Shown here: positions 5,783-12,959 of the stretch, piece by piece
Numbering within the stretch: the first letter of the stretch is position 1
Layout of the letters: each line of letters starts with the position of its first letter
DNA from: Bacteroidota bacterium
Lineage (GTDB): Bacteria; Bacteroidota; Bacteroidia; UKL13-3
NCBI GenBank assembly: GCA_947464275.1
Contig: CANHVU010000028.1
Span: forward strand, 1-43,789
Length of the DNA: 43,789 bases
Direction of reading: 5' to 3'
Position numbers and translations under genes: made by a program
Notes under the pieces: generated by a model
Databases searched by the model: none
Told to the model about the DNA's origin: nothing
Seen by the model: only the letters and a program-made list of their open reading frames with translations

Positions 5783-5862
5783 CCACCAACTACTCTTTCT
5801 TATTTCAAATAAAGGAAAATTATAGGAATAAAATGTATGAATGATACAAATTCGGTTGGTGG
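5783..5862. repeat. Repeat module, copy 1
   Basis: Positions 5793-5852 match 6311-6370 at 59 of 60 bases. The unit contains TTATTTCAAATAA and AGGAAAATTATAGGAATAA. It is enclosed by CCACCAAC (5783-5790) and GTTGGTGG (5855-5862). This copy lies downstream of the minus-strand gene 5886-6263. Confidence 0.85.
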
Positions 5863-5885: not shown

Positions 5886-6263
5886 TCAAGACACTTTTGT
5901 TCCATTTAGCGGTGGAGTTAATAAAAACTCCTTCCAGCCTAAACAAATTTCTTTAAAATCTTGGGTGGGAATTGTTGGATAGTTTGTACCTACACCATCA
6001 ATTAAAAAATAAGTTAAATCTTGCTTTATAAGTATTGTAATAGTTTCAGAACCTGTATCATATTCTTGTAATGTACCATTAATTACTTGATCTAAATATG
6101 GTAAAAGCCATTCATCCATTTCCTCAACAGACCAACTGTCGATGAATTCATTTAAATACCTATTATTTGTTTCAATAGATTTAAAGATTTCATCACCAGA
6201 ACTCCAATTAAGTACTTTATTTTGAAGTGTAATTTGGTATTGATTTATTAAATTCTGATTCAT
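5886..6263 (-). CDS. Unknown 125-residue protein in a repeat-bounded cassette
   Basis: I do not recognise the family. The protein is acidic, without signal or membrane segment. Visible parts: a helical N-terminal half with FKSIETNNRYLNEFIDSW and EEMDEWLLPYLDQVI, then a likely beta-rich half (SETITILIKQDLTYFLIDGV) and a Trp-containing end (KEICLGWKEFLLTPP). Size, acidity and isolation recall immunity proteins of polymorphic toxins, but no toxin gene is near and this is a guess. It is the only minus-strand gene before 13320. A 9-bp inverted pair GGACAGAAA/TTTCTGTCC (5876-5884, 6279-6287) and then 60-bp direct repeats bracket it, which suggests it moved in as a cassette. Confidence 0.6.
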   Translation of the reverse strand: MNQNLINQYQITLQNKVLNWSSGDEIFKSIETNNRYLNEFIDSWSVEEMDEWLLPYLDQVINGTLQEYDTGSETITILIKQDLTYFLIDGVGTNYPTIPTQDFKEICLGWKEFLLTPPLNGTKVS

Positions 6264-6789
6264 TGAAGTTCAAGTTAATTTCTGTCCATGTTTGCTTTCC
6301 CCACCACCCCCTCTTTCTTATTTCAAATAAAGGAAAATTATAGGAATAAAATGTATGAATGATGCAAATTTGTCCAAGGTCGGTTGCCGATAGCTATCGG
6401 CACTCACCGCACCTTATTCAGTTGGTGAGGACACCAACCGAGGACATAAAAAAATTATAAAACCATTTTATTTTTTTCCGTGGTTGCTTTACCTACCAAT
6501 CCACTTTTACTATTTAAAATAAAGGAAAATGATAGGAATAACTTGAGCTATTTTTTCAAAATCATTACTCAGTCAAATCTTTAATAATGAATGCCACAAA
6601 TCTAAAAATTACAACATTTAACACTAAAACTGTAACAAGTTTAAGGCTCCATTTGCTCATTTTTGATGTGGTTAATTAGGTATGGAAGTTTGTAATTTAG
6701 CTTACGCAAAAGTTTAACCACCTTTTAACCACTTGGCTTTAAACCTTTTTATTTTCAATGAATCTAGCAAACTTATATTCAATCTAAAT
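6264..6789. repeat. Repeat module copies 2 and 3 with palindromes
   Basis: No gene. Copy 2 of the 60-bp unit is at 6311-6370. A decayed copy 3, recognisable by TTTGC-like start and AAATAAAGGAAAATGATAGG, is at about 6482-6541. Between them are an 18-bp perfect palindrome TGCCGATAGCTATCGGCA (6385-6402) and the hairpin GTTGGTG-AGGA-CACCAAC (6421-6438). The remainder to 6789 should hold the promoter of the T9SS cluster, but I cannot fix it. Confidence 0.8.
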
Positions 6790-8451
6790 ATGCGTTTAAA
6801 AAAATTTACATCCTCTTATGCCGCTATTAAATTAGGCTTACTTATTTTATGTTTAACCAAAATTACTTGGTTAAATGCTCAAACCTTTAATATTATTTTG
6901 GGCAGACCAACCAATAATGCTGTTACGGCTAGTATAATGTTTAACCAAAATACTGATTACTTTTTTGAATACGGAACACAAAAAGGTGTTTATACTCAAA
7001 CCTCGGCCAAATATACTGCCACTGCCAATAAGCCCGATGAAATTGATTTAATAAACTTAACAGCTAATACACAATATTTTTATAGGGTAAAATACAAAGC
7101 CACTTCAACAAGCACTTTTACCAATAGTGCTGAATATTCTTTTTACACCCAACGTGCCAAAGGCAGCACTTTTACTTTTACCATAGAGGCCGATGAACAT
7201 TTATACGATAAAAAAGGTGTTCGTAATATGTACCAAGTAACTTTAAATAACCAAGCCAAGGATAAGCCTGATTTTATGCTTTCGCTTGGCGATATTTTTG
7301 GCGATGACCACAATCCTTATACCATTACATCTCAAGAACTAGATGCACTCCACGCTGATTACAGACCTTTTTTGGGTAGCATTTGTCATTCCGTTCCTTT
7401 TTATGTTTGCCTCGGAAATCATGAAGGTGAAAACGATTTTTATTTAACCAAAACTCCACCTAATAACCTTACAGTTTGGGGTACACAATGGCGTAAATAT
7501 TATTATCCAAATCCTTTTCCAAATACTTTTTATAGTGGCAATACCGATGTTGAGCAATACGGAATAGGCAACCCAGAAAACTATTATGCTTGGACTTGGG
7601 GCGATGCGCTTTTTGTGGTTTTAGATGTGTACAGAGACCAATGCGATACTTCAGAAAAACCACAAGGTTGGAATTGGAGCCTTGGTTTACCTCAATACAA
7701 TTGGTTAAAAACAACTTTGGAAACAAGCACAGCCAAATACAAATTTGTGTTTGCACACCATGTTCGTGGACAAGGACGAGGAGGTATTACCAATGCTCAA
7801 CTATACGAATGGGGAGGCCGCAATAAATTAAATGGACCAAACACATTTGCCAACAATAGACCAGGTTGGGCCAAACCAATTCACAACTTATTTATTGATA
7901 ATAAAGTTAATATTTTTTTCCAAGGACATGACCACGTATTTGCGCATGAAACCTTAGATAGTATAACGTACCAAGCAGTTCCTATGGCGGCTGATTCTAC
8001 TTACGAAATTGGTATGTTAGCCAATGCTGATTCTTACGTATCAGATACGGTTGATGGCACAGGACATATTCGTGTAACTGTTTCGCCCGAAAATGTAAAA
8101 GTAGATTATGTAAAAGCTTATTTACCTGCCGATACGTTGGGTATTCATAAAAATGGCGAGATTGGTTTTACTTATACCATTGGTAAAAAAAGTGATAATA
8201 CTAGCATTAACGAAGTTATTGAAAAGCCTATTGTAAAACTATTTCCAAATCCTGCCAACAATGAATTGTATTTACTTTCAAATAATTTAAATGAAGTATA
8301 TGATATAAGCATGTATAATTTAATTGGGCAACAAGTATTGCAAACTACCAACAAAACCATTGATATAAGCAACTTGCCAAATGGTATGTATATGGTTTTG
8401 GTAAAATCAGCTACTATAGAGTTTAACAAAAAAATAATTGTAAATCATTAA
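6790..8451 (+). CDS. T9SS-exported metallophosphoesterase 1
   Basis: 553 residues. After a signal sequence ending near LNAQT (about residue 31) comes a fibronectin/purple-acid-phosphatase-like N-terminal domain (about 32-122, with PDEIDLINLTANTQYFYRV). The calcineurin-like core carries the metal-ligand motifs DEH (135-137), LGD (D168), GNHEGE (209-214), FAHH (321-324) and GHDH (379-382), so the dinuclear site looks complete. The C-terminal 75 residues begin KLFPNPANNELYL and form a type A T9SS sorting domain, placing the enzyme outside the cell or on its surface. The phosphoester substrate is unknown. The frame is open to 6733, but the signal peptide starts at 6790. The next gene follows after 3 bp. 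Confidence 0.88.
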   Translation: MRLKKFTSSYAAIKLGLLILCLTKITWLNAQTFNIILGRPTNNAVTASIMFNQNTDYFFEYGTQKGVYTQTSAKYTATANKPDEIDLINLTANTQYFYRVKYKATSTSTFTNSAEYSFYTQRAKGSTFTFTIEADEHLYDKKGVRNMYQVTLNNQAKDKPDFMLSLGDIFGDDHNPYTITSQELDALHADYRPFLGSICHSVPFYVCLGNHEGENDFYLTKTPPNNLTVWGTQWRKYYYPNPFPNTFYSGNTDVEQYGIGNPENYYAWTWGDALFVVLDVYRDQCDTSEKPQGWNWSLGLPQYNWLKTTLETSTAKYKFVFAHHVRGQGRGGITNAQLYEWGGRNKLNGPNTFANNRPGWAKPIHNLFIDNKVNIFFQGHDHVFAHETLDSITYQAVPMAADSTYEIGMLANADSYVSDTVDGTGHIRVTVSPENVKVDYVKAYLPADTLGIHKNGEIGFTYTIGKKSDNTSINEVIEKPIVKLFPNPANNELYLLSNNLNEVYDISMYNLIGQQVLQTTNKTIDISNLPNGMYMVLVKSATIEFNKKIIVNH

Positions 8452-8454
8452 GCC

Positions 8455-10167
8455 ATGAAATACATTTTATACCTACTTTTATTCATTGGCATTGGTTTTA
8501 GCAGTTACTCGCAAAATTTGGTTCATGCTGAATTATTAGGCCGACCAACCGATAAAGAAATTACCATACAATTATTCTTTGATTCACTTGTAGAAGTAAG
8601 TGCACAATACAGCACCAAGAGCAATACATTTGACAAGCAAAGCAATTGGCAAACTTTTTCAGCCAACGAACCCTCTGAAATTGTATTGACCAATTTGCAA
8701 GCAAACACCCAATATTATTATAGAATTTGTTATAGAAAGCCTGGTAGTGCCAACATCATTTACCGACCAGAATTTACTTTCCAAACACAAAGAAGTAAAA
8801 ACAATAGCTTTTCATTTACTGTGCAAGCCGACCCTCATTTAGATGAACAAACAGATACTGCGCTGTACAACTTATGTTTAAAAAACCAATTGGATGATAA
8901 GCCAGATTTTATGATTGATTTAGGCGATTTCTTAATGTCGGATAAGTTAGCAAATGCAAGCAAAGTAATACCACGAGATACTGTAACCTACCGCTGTAAT
9001 TTGTTAAGAACCTATTACGAAAAAATTGCCCACTCTGTTCCTTTATACATTGCCCTTGGCAATCATGAAGGCGAAGCTGGTTGGTTAAACAACAAAACAG
9101 CCAATTGCTTGCCAGTTTGGGGAACATTAGATAGAAAAAAATATTTCAGCAACCCTGCCCCCAATTCATTTTATACAGGCGATACCATCAATCATCCATT
9201 TGTAGGTCAACGTGAAAATTATTATGCATGGACTTGGGGCGATGCTTTATTCATTGTTTTAGATCCATATTGGTACACCAATCCTAAACCCGATTCATTA
9301 AATGGCTGGAGATGGACATTAGGTAAGGTACAATATGATTGGTTAAAAAGTACATTAGAAAAAAACAACTCCAAGTTTAAGTTTGTGTTTGCGCATCAAA
9401 TAATCGGTGGCGACCCAGATGGACGAGGTGGTGTAGAGTTTGCCAATTTGTATGAATGGGGCGGAAATAATTTAGATGGAACAAGAGGTTTTGAAAGCAA
9501 CAGAGTTGGTTGGTACAAACCTATCAAAGATTTATTAAATGAAAATCGAGTAAATATTTTCTTTCATGGTCATGATCACTTTTTTGGTAAGCAGGAAAAA
9601 AATTGTTTGTTTTATCAAGAAGTTCCTCAGCCAAGCCATCCTAATTTTACATCTATTGGTCAGGCTAAAAGTTATGGGTACAAAGAAGGAATTATTTTAC
9701 CCGGTTCAGGACATATAAAAGTTACTGTGGATGGCAATGGTGCAAAGATTGATTACATAAGAGCTTATTTGCAAAAAAACGAAACAGGAACCCGCAAAAA
9801 CAAAGATATTTCGGCCACTTATTATATTGGTGCTATTAATTGTTATGATTCTTTAAGCACAAGTTCACCAGTTTTGTGGAATAGCAATTATGTGGATGAA
9901 CTCATATATCCAAATCCTTTTAACAATGAAGTAAGAATTGAATTTACTTTACCTAATACACAAAAAGTAAATTTAGCCATTTACAATAACCAAGGCCAAT
10001 TGGTAAAAACTTTAATTCATAACCATACAGTTTTAAAAGGTTCGTTTCAAATTATTTGGGATGGAAAAGATTATAACAATGTGCTATTACCTAATGGTAC
10101 ATATTACACTGAACTAATTGGAGAAAATGGATTAAAAAGCAGCAACAAAATAATGATAAACCGATAA
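8455..10167 (+). CDS. T9SS-exported metallophosphoesterase 2 (paralogue)
   Basis: 570 residues, a diverged paralogue of the preceding protein with the same order: signal peptide ending SYSQN, Fn3-like domain (about 24-112, PSEIVLTNLQANTQYYYRI), calcineurin-like core with DPH (126-128), LGD (D158), GNHEGE (202-207), FAHQ (H314) and GHDH (372-375). The export tail is of the longer kind with a FlgD-like beta-sandwich (PNPFNNEVRIEF, then DGKDYNNVLLPNGTYY). Both paralogues keep YYAWTWGDALF before the C-terminal metal motifs. The two sorting tails are not alike, so they were acquired or replaced separately. The gap to the neighbours is 3 and 12 bp, consistent with one operon from tandem duplication. 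Confidence 0.88.
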   Translation: MKYILYLLLFIGIGFSSYSQNLVHAELLGRPTDKEITIQLFFDSLVEVSAQYSTKSNTFDKQSNWQTFSANEPSEIVLTNLQANTQYYYRICYRKPGSANIIYRPEFTFQTQRSKNNSFSFTVQADPHLDEQTDTALYNLCLKNQLDDKPDFMIDLGDFLMSDKLANASKVIPRDTVTYRCNLLRTYYEKIAHSVPLYIALGNHEGEAGWLNNKTANCLPVWGTLDRKKYFSNPAPNSFYTGDTINHPFVGQRENYYAWTWGDALFIVLDPYWYTNPKPDSLNGWRWTLGKVQYDWLKSTLEKNNSKFKFVFAHQIIGGDPDGRGGVEFANLYEWGGNNLDGTRGFESNRVGWYKPIKDLLNENRVNIFFHGHDHFFGKQEKNCLFYQEVPQPSHPNFTSIGQAKSYGYKEGIILPGSGHIKVTVDGNGAKIDYIRAYLQKNETGTRKNKDISATYYIGAINCYDSLSTSSPVLWNSNYVDELIYPNPFNNEVRIEFTLPNTQKVNLAIYNNQGQLVKTLIHNHTVLKGSFQIIWDGKDYNNVLLPNGTYYTELIGENGLKSSNKIMINR

Positions 10168-10179
10168 TTAAATAACAAT

Positions 10180-11772
10180 ATGAAAAAGATTTTTGTAGTT
10201 TTATTGATTTGCATATTAACCCAAATTACATGGGCTCACGATGCTCACCAGCAAATGGCTTTTCCAAGAAAATGGAATATGGAAAGCACCCATCAAACCA
10301 TTGAAGGAACATTTTATTTATTCAAAAATAATACAGTTTTTATTGAAGATAATGAGGGCAATATCAAATCTATTTCATATAATAATTTATCTCTAAATGA
10401 TCAACAATTTGTTCAAAAAAGACAAGCAAGTATCAATGCATTACATGCAAAAGCAAAACCAATTATAAACGGTTCAAGCAGCAATCAATTTACTATAAAA
10501 CTGTATTTAATGGTTGCCTTGTTGATTTTTATTGCATGGCAATTCTTTAATGCTGATAGAAAGAAATGGTTTTATGTTATGCCTACAGTTTTAGTGGGTG
10601 GATTGGTAATGTCTTATAGTTTTACTAGTAAAACATTGAAAAAATCTACTGATATAACCTACCTAAAATCTGCATTTGACCCCTTTAGACCGAATGTTAA
10701 TACGCGTTGGGATGCCAATTATTTTTATGTAGAATCAATTGGTATTCCTGAACACGAAATGATGAAAGGCATAACAGGTTGGCAACAACAATTTCCTATT
10801 CCGCAATGTTATATAGGAACTAATGCATGGAGTATTCCGCTCAATCCTGTTAAAGCAAGCACGCCAGTGCCCGTAAATCAACAGCATTTTTTACGTGGAG
10901 CCATTGCTGTAGCAGCCAATGGAATTGCTATATTTAATCCCTATACCAATACCGGAGTTGATGCTTTTTTAGATGGACAATTAGATGAATTTGGAGGTCA
11001 TTGCGGCAGAGCCGATGATTACCATTATCATACTGCGCCTATGTTTTTAGATACTAAAACAAGCGATATTTTACCTATAGCATTTGCACTTGATGGATAT
11101 GCAGTTTATGGCGCATTAGAGCCAGATGGTTCAGCCATGAAAACATTAGATGCCAATCATGGACACGAAGGAGCAAATGGACTTTATCATTACCATGGAA
11201 CAGCAACTGCACCTTACATGATTGGAAATATGGTAGGCCAAGTAACGGAAGATACCACTTTGCAAATAATACCACAAGCCTCAGCTAAGCCAATCAGGCC
11301 AGCAGGAACACCTTTAAAAGGAGCAGTGATAACAGGTTGTAAATCCAATTTAACAAATAACGGCTATACTTTAACTTACACTTTAAATGGCAAAACTGAT
11401 TCGGTAGAATATAGTTGGACACCAGCTGGAAATTATACATTTAACTTTTATGCATCAGGAGTAAAAACTACCAATACTTACAAAGGAACCATTTGCACAG
11501 TGCCCAATACCGTTGGTGTTAAACAACTTAATTTTTCTAATAAAATTGCCATTTACCCTAATCCCACTAACGAAAATTTATACATTGGCTTAACTGATAT
11601 TGACTCAAAACAAATAACTAACATTAGTATTTTCAACCTAAGTGGTAAACAAGTTTATGGTGTCTCGCAATTCGAAAATACAATAGATATAAAGAGTTTT
11701 GAAGCAGGCATATATTTTATTAAAATAAAAACCAATCAAACAGAAGTAACTAAAAAGTTTGTAATTGATTAA
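10180..11772 (+). CDS. Exported YHYH-domain protein with SHD1-like N-terminus and T9SS tail
   Basis: 530 residues. Signal peptide (1-19, ending TWA-HD). Residues 31-81 (KWNMESTHQTIEGTFYLF to NLSLNDQQFVQKR) resemble the SLA1-homology-1 like domain often found in secreted planctomycete proteins. Two hydrophobic segments follow at about 106-123 and 130-149. The main domain (about 165-385) is YHYH: GGHCGRADDYHYHTAP (272-287) and HGHEGANGLYHYHG (327-340), with His/Asp/Cys residues that look metal-binding. The last 75 residues (IYPNPTNENLYI onward) are a T9SS type A sorting domain. YHYH protein function is unknown. The membrane segments before a T9SS tail are odd: they could be buried strands or an inner-membrane anchor that would conflict with export. 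Confidence 0.82.
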   Translation: MKKIFVVLLICILTQITWAHDAHQQMAFPRKWNMESTHQTIEGTFYLFKNNTVFIEDNEGNIKSISYNNLSLNDQQFVQKRQASINALHAKAKPIINGSSSNQFTIKLYLMVALLIFIAWQFFNADRKKWFYVMPTVLVGGLVMSYSFTSKTLKKSTDITYLKSAFDPFRPNVNTRWDANYFYVESIGIPEHEMMKGITGWQQQFPIPQCYIGTNAWSIPLNPVKASTPVPVNQQHFLRGAIAVAANGIAIFNPYTNTGVDAFLDGQLDEFGGHCGRADDYHYHTAPMFLDTKTSDILPIAFALDGYAVYGALEPDGSAMKTLDANHGHEGANGLYHYHGTATAPYMIGNMVGQVTEDTTLQIIPQASAKPIRPAGTPLKGAVITGCKSNLTNNGYTLTYTLNGKTDSVEYSWTPAGNYTFNFYASGVKTTNTYKGTICTVPNTVGVKQLNFSNKIAIYPNPTNENLYIGLTDIDSKQITNISIFNLSGKQVYGVSQFENTIDIKSFEAGIYFIKIKTNQTEVTKKFVID

Positions 11773-11780
11773 GCCAAAAC

Positions 11781-12959
11781 ATGAAGATTTTTATAACCAT
11801 TATATGTAGTATTTATATACTAAATGTAACATCACAAACTGTTAACAAAAACATGTTACGCATACCCGATACGGGGCAAAAAAACAGTTATACCAATACT
11901 TTTGGCGAGGATAATGATTACAACATCAACACACCATTTTATATAAATAATGGAAATGGAACGGTAAAAGATACCGTAACTGGTTTAATTTGGCAACAAA
12001 CTGATGGAGGTGAAATGACCATAGAAAATGCTGCCATTTATTGTGATACTTTAATGCTTGGTGGTTTTACCAATTGGCGATTGCCAACGGCTAAAGAATC
12101 TTTTAGCATTTTAAATCATCAAAACAACAACCCCGCAATTGACATTAACTTATTTACTAAAACTGCTGCAGAGTATTGGTGGACAAGTGAGAAACAAAAC
12201 AACGATGTCAATAAAATTTGGTGCACCAATGCAGGTGGCGGTATAGGCAATCATCCTAAAACAGAAACCATAAGTGCAGGTGGAACCAAAAAATTTCATG
12301 TAAGAGCCGTTAGAGATGTAGTTGAACCAACTATAATTCAAAATCATTTTAACGATAATGGCAACGGTACCATAACCGATAATTTAACCAACCTAGTTTG
12401 GCAAAAAATACCAAACACCAATACTTTAACCTGGGAAGATGCCTTGGTTTATGCAGAAGGGCTTGAACTTGGTAATAGTTCCAATTGGCATTTACCCAAT
12501 ATTAAGGAGTTGCAATCAATCAGTGAAGTAACATTTATTAACCCAGCAGTAAATACCAATTTCTTTAGCATTTCTGGCACCAAAAAATTTTGGTCATCTA
12601 CCTCTTTACCTAACCAAACCACCAAAGCTTGGTATTGGGATACTCAATTTGGCATTACTACTTACGACTTAAAAACCAATAGCAATTATGTAATTTGTGT
12701 AACCAGCAAAATGGAAAGTAACACATCGGTTAACAATCAAAATTTTGATACTAAAACTATAGAAGTTTATCCAAATCCATTTACCAATAAAATTAATATT
12801 TTAAATGCTCAGCCCAATGCAGAGATAATATTGTTTAATAATATTGGGCAAATCATTTATCAAGGTAAAGACCTCACAAACCAAGACTTAAGCTATTTAA
12901 CCAAAGGTGTTTATTTTATTAAAGTGGAGGGCAATACATACATTATTTTAAAGCAATAA
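11781..12959 (+). CDS. DUF1566 (Lcl) two-repeat protein with T9SS tail
   Basis: 392 residues. Signal peptide to about residue 18. Two DUF1566/Lcl domains follow in tandem: 57-180 (NGNGTVKDTVTGLIWQQTDG, FTNWRLPTAKES, YWWTSE, FHVRAVRD) and 191-315 (NGNGTITDNLTNLVWQKIP, SSNWHLPNIKEL, KFWSST). A T9SS sorting domain closes the protein (EVYPNPFTNKINI, about 325-392). The Lcl domain is named after a Legionella collagen-like adhesin, where it binds glycosaminoglycans; here a surface recognition or adhesion role is inference. It starts 9 bp after the YHYH gene and is the last of four adjacent T9SS-exported genes. Confidence 0.88.
   Translation: MKIFITIICSIYILNVTSQTVNKNMLRIPDTGQKNSYTNTFGEDNDYNINTPFYINNGNGTVKDTVTGLIWQQTDGGEMTIENAAIYCDTLMLGGFTNWRLPTAKESFSILNHQNNNPAIDINLFTKTAAEYWWTSEKQNNDVNKIWCTNAGGGIGNHPKTETISAGGTKKFHVRAVRDVVEPTIIQNHFNDNGNGTITDNLTNLVWQKIPNTNTLTWEDALVYAEGLELGNSSNWHLPNIKELQSISEVTFINPAVNTNFFSISGTKKFWSSTSLPNQTTKAWYWDTQFGITTYDLKTNSNYVICVTSKMESNTSVNNQNFDTKTIEVYPNPFTNKINILNAQPNAEIILFNNIGQIIYQGKDLTNQDLSYLTKGVYFIKVEGNTYIILKQ

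Follow-up and report, generated by a model that had tools for sequence, protein, structure and literature searches.

What joint task, if any, is shared by two phosphoesterases, a YHYH protein and a DUF1566 protein that follow one another on a single strand and all end in the same secretion domain? We address this question for a cluster in contig CANHVU010000028.1 of a Bacteroidota bacterium of the UKL13-3 lineage (assembly GCA_947464275.1), of which positions 1 to 43,789 were analysed (hereafter the window). The cluster comprises two metallophosphoesterase (MPE) genes, MPE1 and MPE2, followed by YHYH-a and LCL (Table 1). An earlier note, made from the sequence alone, had proposed a joint extracellular job with a leaning towards phosphate. 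Here, we find that the cluster is one piece of a more extensive locus of modular make-up, and we interpret the four genes as part of a metal-responsive, copper-linked and largely surface-exported Bacteroidota gene set, rather than of plain phosphate scavenging, a reading in which our confidence is about even.

The four genes run in tandem on the forward strand with gaps of 3, 12 and 8 base pairs (bp), which agrees with the earlier note except for the last gap, put there at 9 bp. Pfam profiles bear out the proposed families. MPE1 (Metallophos 1.1e-8) and MPE2 (Metallophos 4.3e-9) are paralogues with 39% identity, YHYH-a matches YHYH (1e-14; the PF14240 profile gives 55.4 bits against a cut-off of 25), and LCL matches Lcl_C (DUF1566) in two stretches (5.3e-49; 165.8 bits against a cut-off of 34.9). 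The sorting domains of the type IX secretion system (T9SS) at all four ends are likewise upheld, as Por_Secre_tail scores above its curated cut-off in each protein: 2.6e-13 in MPE1 (residues 484-551), 7.1e-7 in MPE2 (residues 484-568), 3e-16 in YHYH-a and 4e-9 in LCL (residues 329-387). The T9SS component SprA is present in the same genome. A profile that includes the T9SS tail has 85 matches in this genome, the majority of them to the tail only; since such tails are common here, to find one on every gene of a four-gene cluster is less remarkable than it first appears. For MPE1, the program-made list of open reading frames (ORFs) starts at a TTG at 6733, and the ATG at 6790 agrees with the signal peptide. 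A consensus scan found no terminator-like site in the three intergenic gaps.

Searching the YHYH protein against 84,980 species genomes yielded 70 loci; the counts exclude L001, L002 and L073, and two loci are probably mis-binned, namely L037 (titled Methylobacter), a near-copy that groups with L018, and L045 (titled Rhizobium), which groups with the Bacteroidota locus L054. Relatives with as little as about 45-50% identity still show the grouping, and this recurrence indicates that it did not arise by chance. All four families lie in one same-strand run in 29 of the 70 loci, the run of YHYH-a holding MPE1 in 33, MPE2 in 34 and LCL in 55. MPE1, MPE2 and YHYH are consecutive in 27 loci, and the exact order of the window, with four consecutive genes, is kept in 10, including three YHYH/LCL fusions. 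Such fusions are found in L052 and L061 and, truncated at a contig end, in L062, and L023 carries an LCL/MPE2 fusion. When YHYH-a is grouped at 80% identity, all four families are present in 20 of 37 clusters and LCL in 31.

An independent sample of 395 genomes of the phylum contains strong matches to YHYH-a in 9, to MPE1/2 in 11 and to LCL in 11, with E-value bars set post hoc at 1e-100 (YHYH-a) and 1e-90 (LCL); the looser bar of the search itself, 1e-20, gives 14 and 18 carriers. Leaving out the bacterium's own genome (G000), the overlaps among 394 genomes, with kinship ignored, are 6 shared of 8 and 10 carriers for YHYH-a and LCL (hypergeometric p 1.2e-9), 8 shared of 10 and 10 for MPE and LCL (1.5e-13), and 4 shared of 8 and 10 for YHYH-a and MPE (1.4e-5). 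In the eight other genomes with YHYH-a, LCL is close by in six (L077, L079-L083) and the MPE pair in one (L077, in the order ECF, Metal_resist-like, YHYH-a, MPE1, MPE2, LCL, where ECF denotes an extracytoplasmic function sigma factor); neither is close by in L078 and L084. The MPE pair lies about 10 kilobases (kb) from YHYH-a/LCL in G113, and on a separate contig in G101 and G204. Taken together, the runs, fusions and co-occurrence show that the four genes belong together, and the neighbourhood is kept in relatives, contrary to the lack of conservation by which the earlier note would have been refuted. The cluster is, at the same time, only a part within a larger set.

That larger locus includes a CueO-like multicopper oxidase, a sulfatase, another YHYH protein (YHYH-b), thiol-redox proteins, MbnP with a di-haem peroxidase, HupE and an ECF sigma regulator. 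Across the 70 loci, the neighbours within the run are c1, a T9SS protein (23 loci), sulfatase (19), HupE/UreJ (19), YHYH-b (12), AhpC-like (9), multicopper oxidase (8), TlpA-like, MbnP and CCP/MauG peroxidase (7 each), and ECF sigma and Metal_resist-like (5 each). The four families are contiguous with a sulfatase/TlpA/AhpC block in L004, L007, L012, L015, L028 and L068, joined also by YHYH-b in all of these except L028 and by the multicopper oxidase in four. L009 shows an extended order: ECF, sensor-like, MbnP, peroxidase, oxidase, sulfatase, YHYH-b, TlpA, AhpC, YHYH-a, c1, LCL, sulfatase. In the bacterium's own genome, the corresponding parts are spread over other contigs (C26, C21, C34 and C15; Table 1). 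A c1 remnant directly after the AhpC-like gene of C26 retains up to 57% identity over 58 residues to the c1 of L028; together with the order AhpC-c1-YHYH-LCL in L079 and L080, it leads us to infer a single ancestral locus whose break-up gave rise to C26 and the window. A structure model of c1 (mean predicted local distance difference test score 69.8) gave no convincing match beyond the T9SS tail.

Table 1. Features of the four-gene cluster and of related pieces elsewhere in the same genome (positions refer to the window unless a locus or contig is named)
Feature	Position	Strand	Basis or content
MPE1, calcineurin-like metallophosphoesterase	6790..8451	+	Pfam, alignment
MPE2, MPE1 paralogue	8455..10167	+	Pfam, alignment
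YHYH-a (gene 3)	10180..11772	+	Pfam, alignment, structure model
His20 codon of YHYH-a	10237..10239	+	near predicted signal-peptide cut
SHD1-like domain (tentative), residues 25-85	10252..10434	+	structure match
Two predicted helices, transmembrane-like, residues 100-149	10477..10626	+	model, hydropathy
YHYH domain	10828..11196	+	best Pfam match at residues 217-313; conserved motifs reach residue 339
T9SS tail of YHYH-a, residues 458-529	11551..11766	+	Pfam, structure match
LCL (gene 4), two Lcl_C (DUF1566) domains and T9SS tail	11781..12959	+	Pfam
C26 (own genome)			oxidase, sulfatase, YHYH-b, TlpA-like, AhpC-like, TonB receptor
Broken c1 remnant with stops	L073:11888-12247 = G000:C26:41887-42246		directly after AhpC-like gene (about 13 bp)
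C21 (own genome)			ECF sigma, 89-amino-acid protein, sensor-like protein, MbnP, CCP/MauG peroxidase
C34 (own genome)	L102:6984-9178		second MbnP and CCP/MauG pair, then HMA-domain protein and large outer-membrane-receptor-like ORF (receptor read by eye)
C15 (own genome)			HupE protein

A 70-nucleotide intergenic repeat also occurs in three copies upstream of MPE1, at 5783-5852, 6301-6370 and 6493-6562 of the window (94% and 69% to the reference), around a small ORF on the reverse strand (5886-6263).

Could the two enzymes account for the cluster by themselves, as phosphatases that free phosphate at the cell surface when it is limiting, while the other two products aid binding? Their metal-site residues, D126/H128, D158, N203/H204, H314 and H373/H375 in MPE2 numbering, are invariant in 40 aligned MPE1/MPE2 sequences and make up the metallophosphoesterase motifs DxH, GD, GNH[ED], H and GHxH. 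With purple acid phosphatases and PhoD they share the calcineurin-like fold family, a purple-acid-phosphatase-like N-terminal domain that scores below cut-off in MPE1, and a weak sequence match (6git 5.1e-5); they differ in bearing T9SS tails and in lying, here, always within the Bacteroidota module. In the window translations, the tyrosine of GDxxY, a metal ligand in purple acid phosphatases, is absent, as GD is followed by IFGD in MPE1 and by FLMS in MPE2. The conserved sites and the weak similarity are consistent with phosphate release, but the genes conserved beside them have links to copper and sulfate instead, and the upstream regulator in L007, L012, L018, L077 and L091-L093 is an ECF sigma factor, not of Pho type (no Pho-box search was made). 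The phosphate leaning of the earlier note is not borne out: the neighbours point to copper and metal handling, and no phosphate-acquisition family appears among the classified neighbours or the 25 of 114 families listed (108 of the 116 flanking proteins). We dropped phosphate scavenging as the principal reading and consider it quite improbable.

The evidence for a copper link comes largely from the company that YHYH proteins keep. PF14240 is present in 39 of the 395 phylum genomes, and from its places in them 40 loci were selected (six came from the YHYH-a search, three genomes give two each, and L123 has no YHYH label from our local models). MbnP, peroxidase, oxidase or SCO1 is found in 24 of these 40 loci, against none of 20 control windows (Fisher 2.4e-6), the YHYH windows spanning 5 to 17 kb and the controls 12.7 kb at hand-picked positions; the oxidase match in L121 is weak (76 bits). 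Five of the 40 loci served as seeds for the SCO model; when they are set aside, the count is 19 of 35 (1.7e-5). By best label, the short YHYH type has SCO1 nearby in 16 of 18 loci, usually separated from it by one small gene that, where tested (L088), encodes a MORN-repeat protein; the YHYH-b-labelled loci have MbnP, peroxidase or oxidase nearby in 8 of 21. The row of short YHYH, small gene and SCO1/SenC (L085-L090, L124-L129, L131, L133, L134 and L136) recurs in numerous Bacteroidota genomes and looks like a separate YHYH-copper operon.

Several known copper systems offer comparison. An MbnP-family protein lies beside a di-haem CCP/MauG protein in the L009 locus and on C21 and C34, as in MbnP/MbnH and MopE-SACCP/CorA-CorB, and MopE/CorA-type proteins with their di-haem partner bind copper at the cell surface, according to an excerpt of PMC3912023. 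Neither protein is in the window's cluster; in this genome they are on other contigs, in relatives they share the run in 7 of the 70 loci, and nothing equivalent to the four genes of the cluster appears in those systems as the excerpted sources describe them. Among solved structures, CueO is closest to the C26 multicopper oxidase (8r4h 3.6e-79), which differs from it in that this type of oxidase has a T9SS tail (seen in the L004 relative, and in the own copy through the tail part of the profile) and is grouped with YHYH, sulfatase and thiol-redox genes. The regulator resembles CnrYXH: an ECF sigma factor, a short protein and a Metal_resist-like protein stand in a row upstream in L007, L012 and L091-L093 (ECF and a Metal_resist-like gene in three of the four loci L091-L094; Metal_resist by Pfam adjoins ECF in L007 and L091), and C21 has ECF, the 89-amino-acid protein and the sensor-like protein. 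The short proteins examined differ in having no Pfam match, and the own sensor-like protein fits a local model only; by analogy, the row may respond to metal.

The same genes might instead serve a metal-stress response of the envelope, a shell under ECF control that protects from metal toxicity, by copper or otherwise, and in which the oxidase detoxifies Cu(I) like CueO and the rest repairs or modifies surface polymers. The CueO-like oxidase, Metal_resist beside ECF and the precedent of metal sensing by CnrX-CnrY-CnrH (in the portion of PMC4598750 consulted) would suit such a role, but the classified runs contain no recurrent efflux ATPase or resistance-nodulation-division pump, a copper-ATPase-like protein (c19) occurring only in five loci outside the core, and MopE/CorA-type pairs are produced at copper scarcity, as stated in part of PMC3912023. 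We regard a stress response as rather unlikely.

A number of observations weigh against the copper-linked reading of the four genes. Metallophosphoesterases of this type usually carry Fe, Mn or Zn, and none of the window genes is known to have a copper site. No copper-linked gene is present in 16 of the 40 YHYH loci, and copper genes are most plentiful in loci other than those with MPE (MbnP/peroxidase in the run of 7 of 70, oxidase of 8 of 70). YHYH-a has neither MPE nor LCL in its run in 11 of the 70 loci, some on contigs cut short. The C21 sensor-like protein has no Pfam match at 1e-3 and matches only a local three-sequence model. An exact search for paired 5-mers and 4-mers, which made no use of the L012 sequence, found no promoter motif shared by the three own-genome loci, so co-regulation within this genome is unsupported. 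For phages, moreover, the section of PMC7824862 consulted predicts that YHYH acts as a Zn hydrolase. Finally, L091-L094 have MPE1, MPE2 and LCL without YHYH-a, oxidase or MbnP; in two of them Lcl_C is fused to an FGE-sulfatase domain in a protein with a T9SS tail (L091:11733-14006, L092:11950-14241), and arylsulfotransferase-like T9SS proteins adjoin this fusion. The fusion and its neighbours suit sulfate-ester chemistry.

These last loci lead to another explanation, the surface breakdown of a sulfated and phosphorylated glycan, which LCL would bind and from which the sulfatase and the MPEs would strip sulfate and phosphate, the metal proteins being only cofactors or oxidants. The sulfatase, FGE and arylsulfotransferase companions make it a serious rival: besides the domains in L091 and L092, a sulfatase shares the run in 19 of the 70 loci, and the solved structures closest to it are those of sulfatases that act on carrageenan and other glycans. 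According to the part of PMC11162425 available to us, the Lcl protein of Legionella binds sulphated glycosaminoglycans; the window LCL shares with it the Lcl_C domain and differs in its tandem Lcl_C pair and T9SS tail, with no collagen repeat visible in the translation. A glycan-degrading role leaves MbnP, peroxidase, SCO1 and the CueO-like oxidase unexplained, and no recurrent glycoside hydrolase or SusC/SusD is found among the identified clustered neighbours or the 25 of 114 families listed (108 flanking proteins). We hold it to be unlikely, yet to deserve serious consideration.

Within the copper-linked set that we favour, YHYH-a calls for a closer look. Its residues H274, D279, D280, YHYH 281-284, H329 and YHYH 336-339 are invariant in 45 aligned sequences, as is His20 (45/45); of the 63 loci sequences, 44 entered alignment A1 and 24 entered A5. 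His20 sits beside the likely signal-peptide cut, a place at which Bacteroidetes typically expose Gln (in an extract of PMC5837995). By a crude cleavage-site rule, the residue after the cut is His in no more than 21 of the 62 YHYH-a sequences and Gln in no more than 15 of 48 LCL sequences; the idea of an N-terminal His is accordingly drawn from the alignment column and from reading the translations, not from this script. The structure model has helices at residues 100-124 and 127-149, and by a crude hydropathy rule 60 of the 62 YHYH-a sequences have membrane segments, one or two each, against 1 of 175 sequences in seven other exported families (0-1 per family). In Foldseek and VIA-align searches of the model, most matches fell on the T9SS tail and do not bear on the fold of the YHYH domain; one fell on the SHD1-like part, which aligns to 2hbp with Z 7.9 and a root-mean-square deviation of 2.5 over 59 residues (sequence E 0.42). 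Because of the membrane-like segments, export of YHYH-a to the surface is doubtful despite its tail, and of the shared surface export proposed earlier, the tails on all four proteins stand while the delivery of YHYH-a is in question. How can a protein with membrane segments bear a T9SS tail? One tentative possibility is that YHYH proteins form an envelope copper-protein family, in which YHYH-a would be unusual in that its single chain begins, once mature, with a histidine-brace-like His, contains a membrane hairpin and ends in a T9SS tail, and may act as a T9SS-docked, inner-membrane-anchored metal-transfer protein that partners the surface phosphatases, the sulfatase and the CueO-like oxidase.

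We envision the following stepwise process. The gene set would be turned on by an ECF sigma factor that is kept in check by two proteins, a small anti-sigma factor in the membrane and a metal-sensor-like protein in the periplasm, and the T9SS would carry MPE1, MPE2, LCL, the sulfatase and the multicopper oxidase to the surface. There, LCL may dock onto polyanionic glycans, from which MPE1/2 and the sulfatase would strip metal-holding groups, phosphate and sulfate respectively; the metal would be bound by YHYH proteins and handed onward by MbnP/peroxidase, thiol-redox proteins and HupE. The scheme builds on observed gene order, conservation, fusions and co-occurrence, on conserved residues of metal-site type and on the finding of the other parts in the same genome. 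Within it, we infer copper to be the metal served by the four genes, as we do the role of the regulator and the order of the steps; the direction may be either uptake or detoxification, and the glycan docking and the release of metal-holding groups are put forward in the same conditional sense.

In keeping with the earlier note, which knew of no such combination, the open literature yielded no paper that contains both YHYH and DUF1566 and no description of the four families together. Among 5.39 million open papers, three were found to name a YHYH domain or protein in this sense. Nor did the open literature yield a functional study of YHYH/PF14240, the family being listed in the parts of PMC11992049 and PMC7029224 consulted. 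Through its neighbourhood of SCO1, MbnP/peroxidase and CueO-like oxidase, this poorly understood family gains a first testable role in the form of the copper hypothesis. If that hypothesis is true, phosphatases, a sulfatase and a lectin-like protein would join the machinery by which these bacteria handle metal at their surface.

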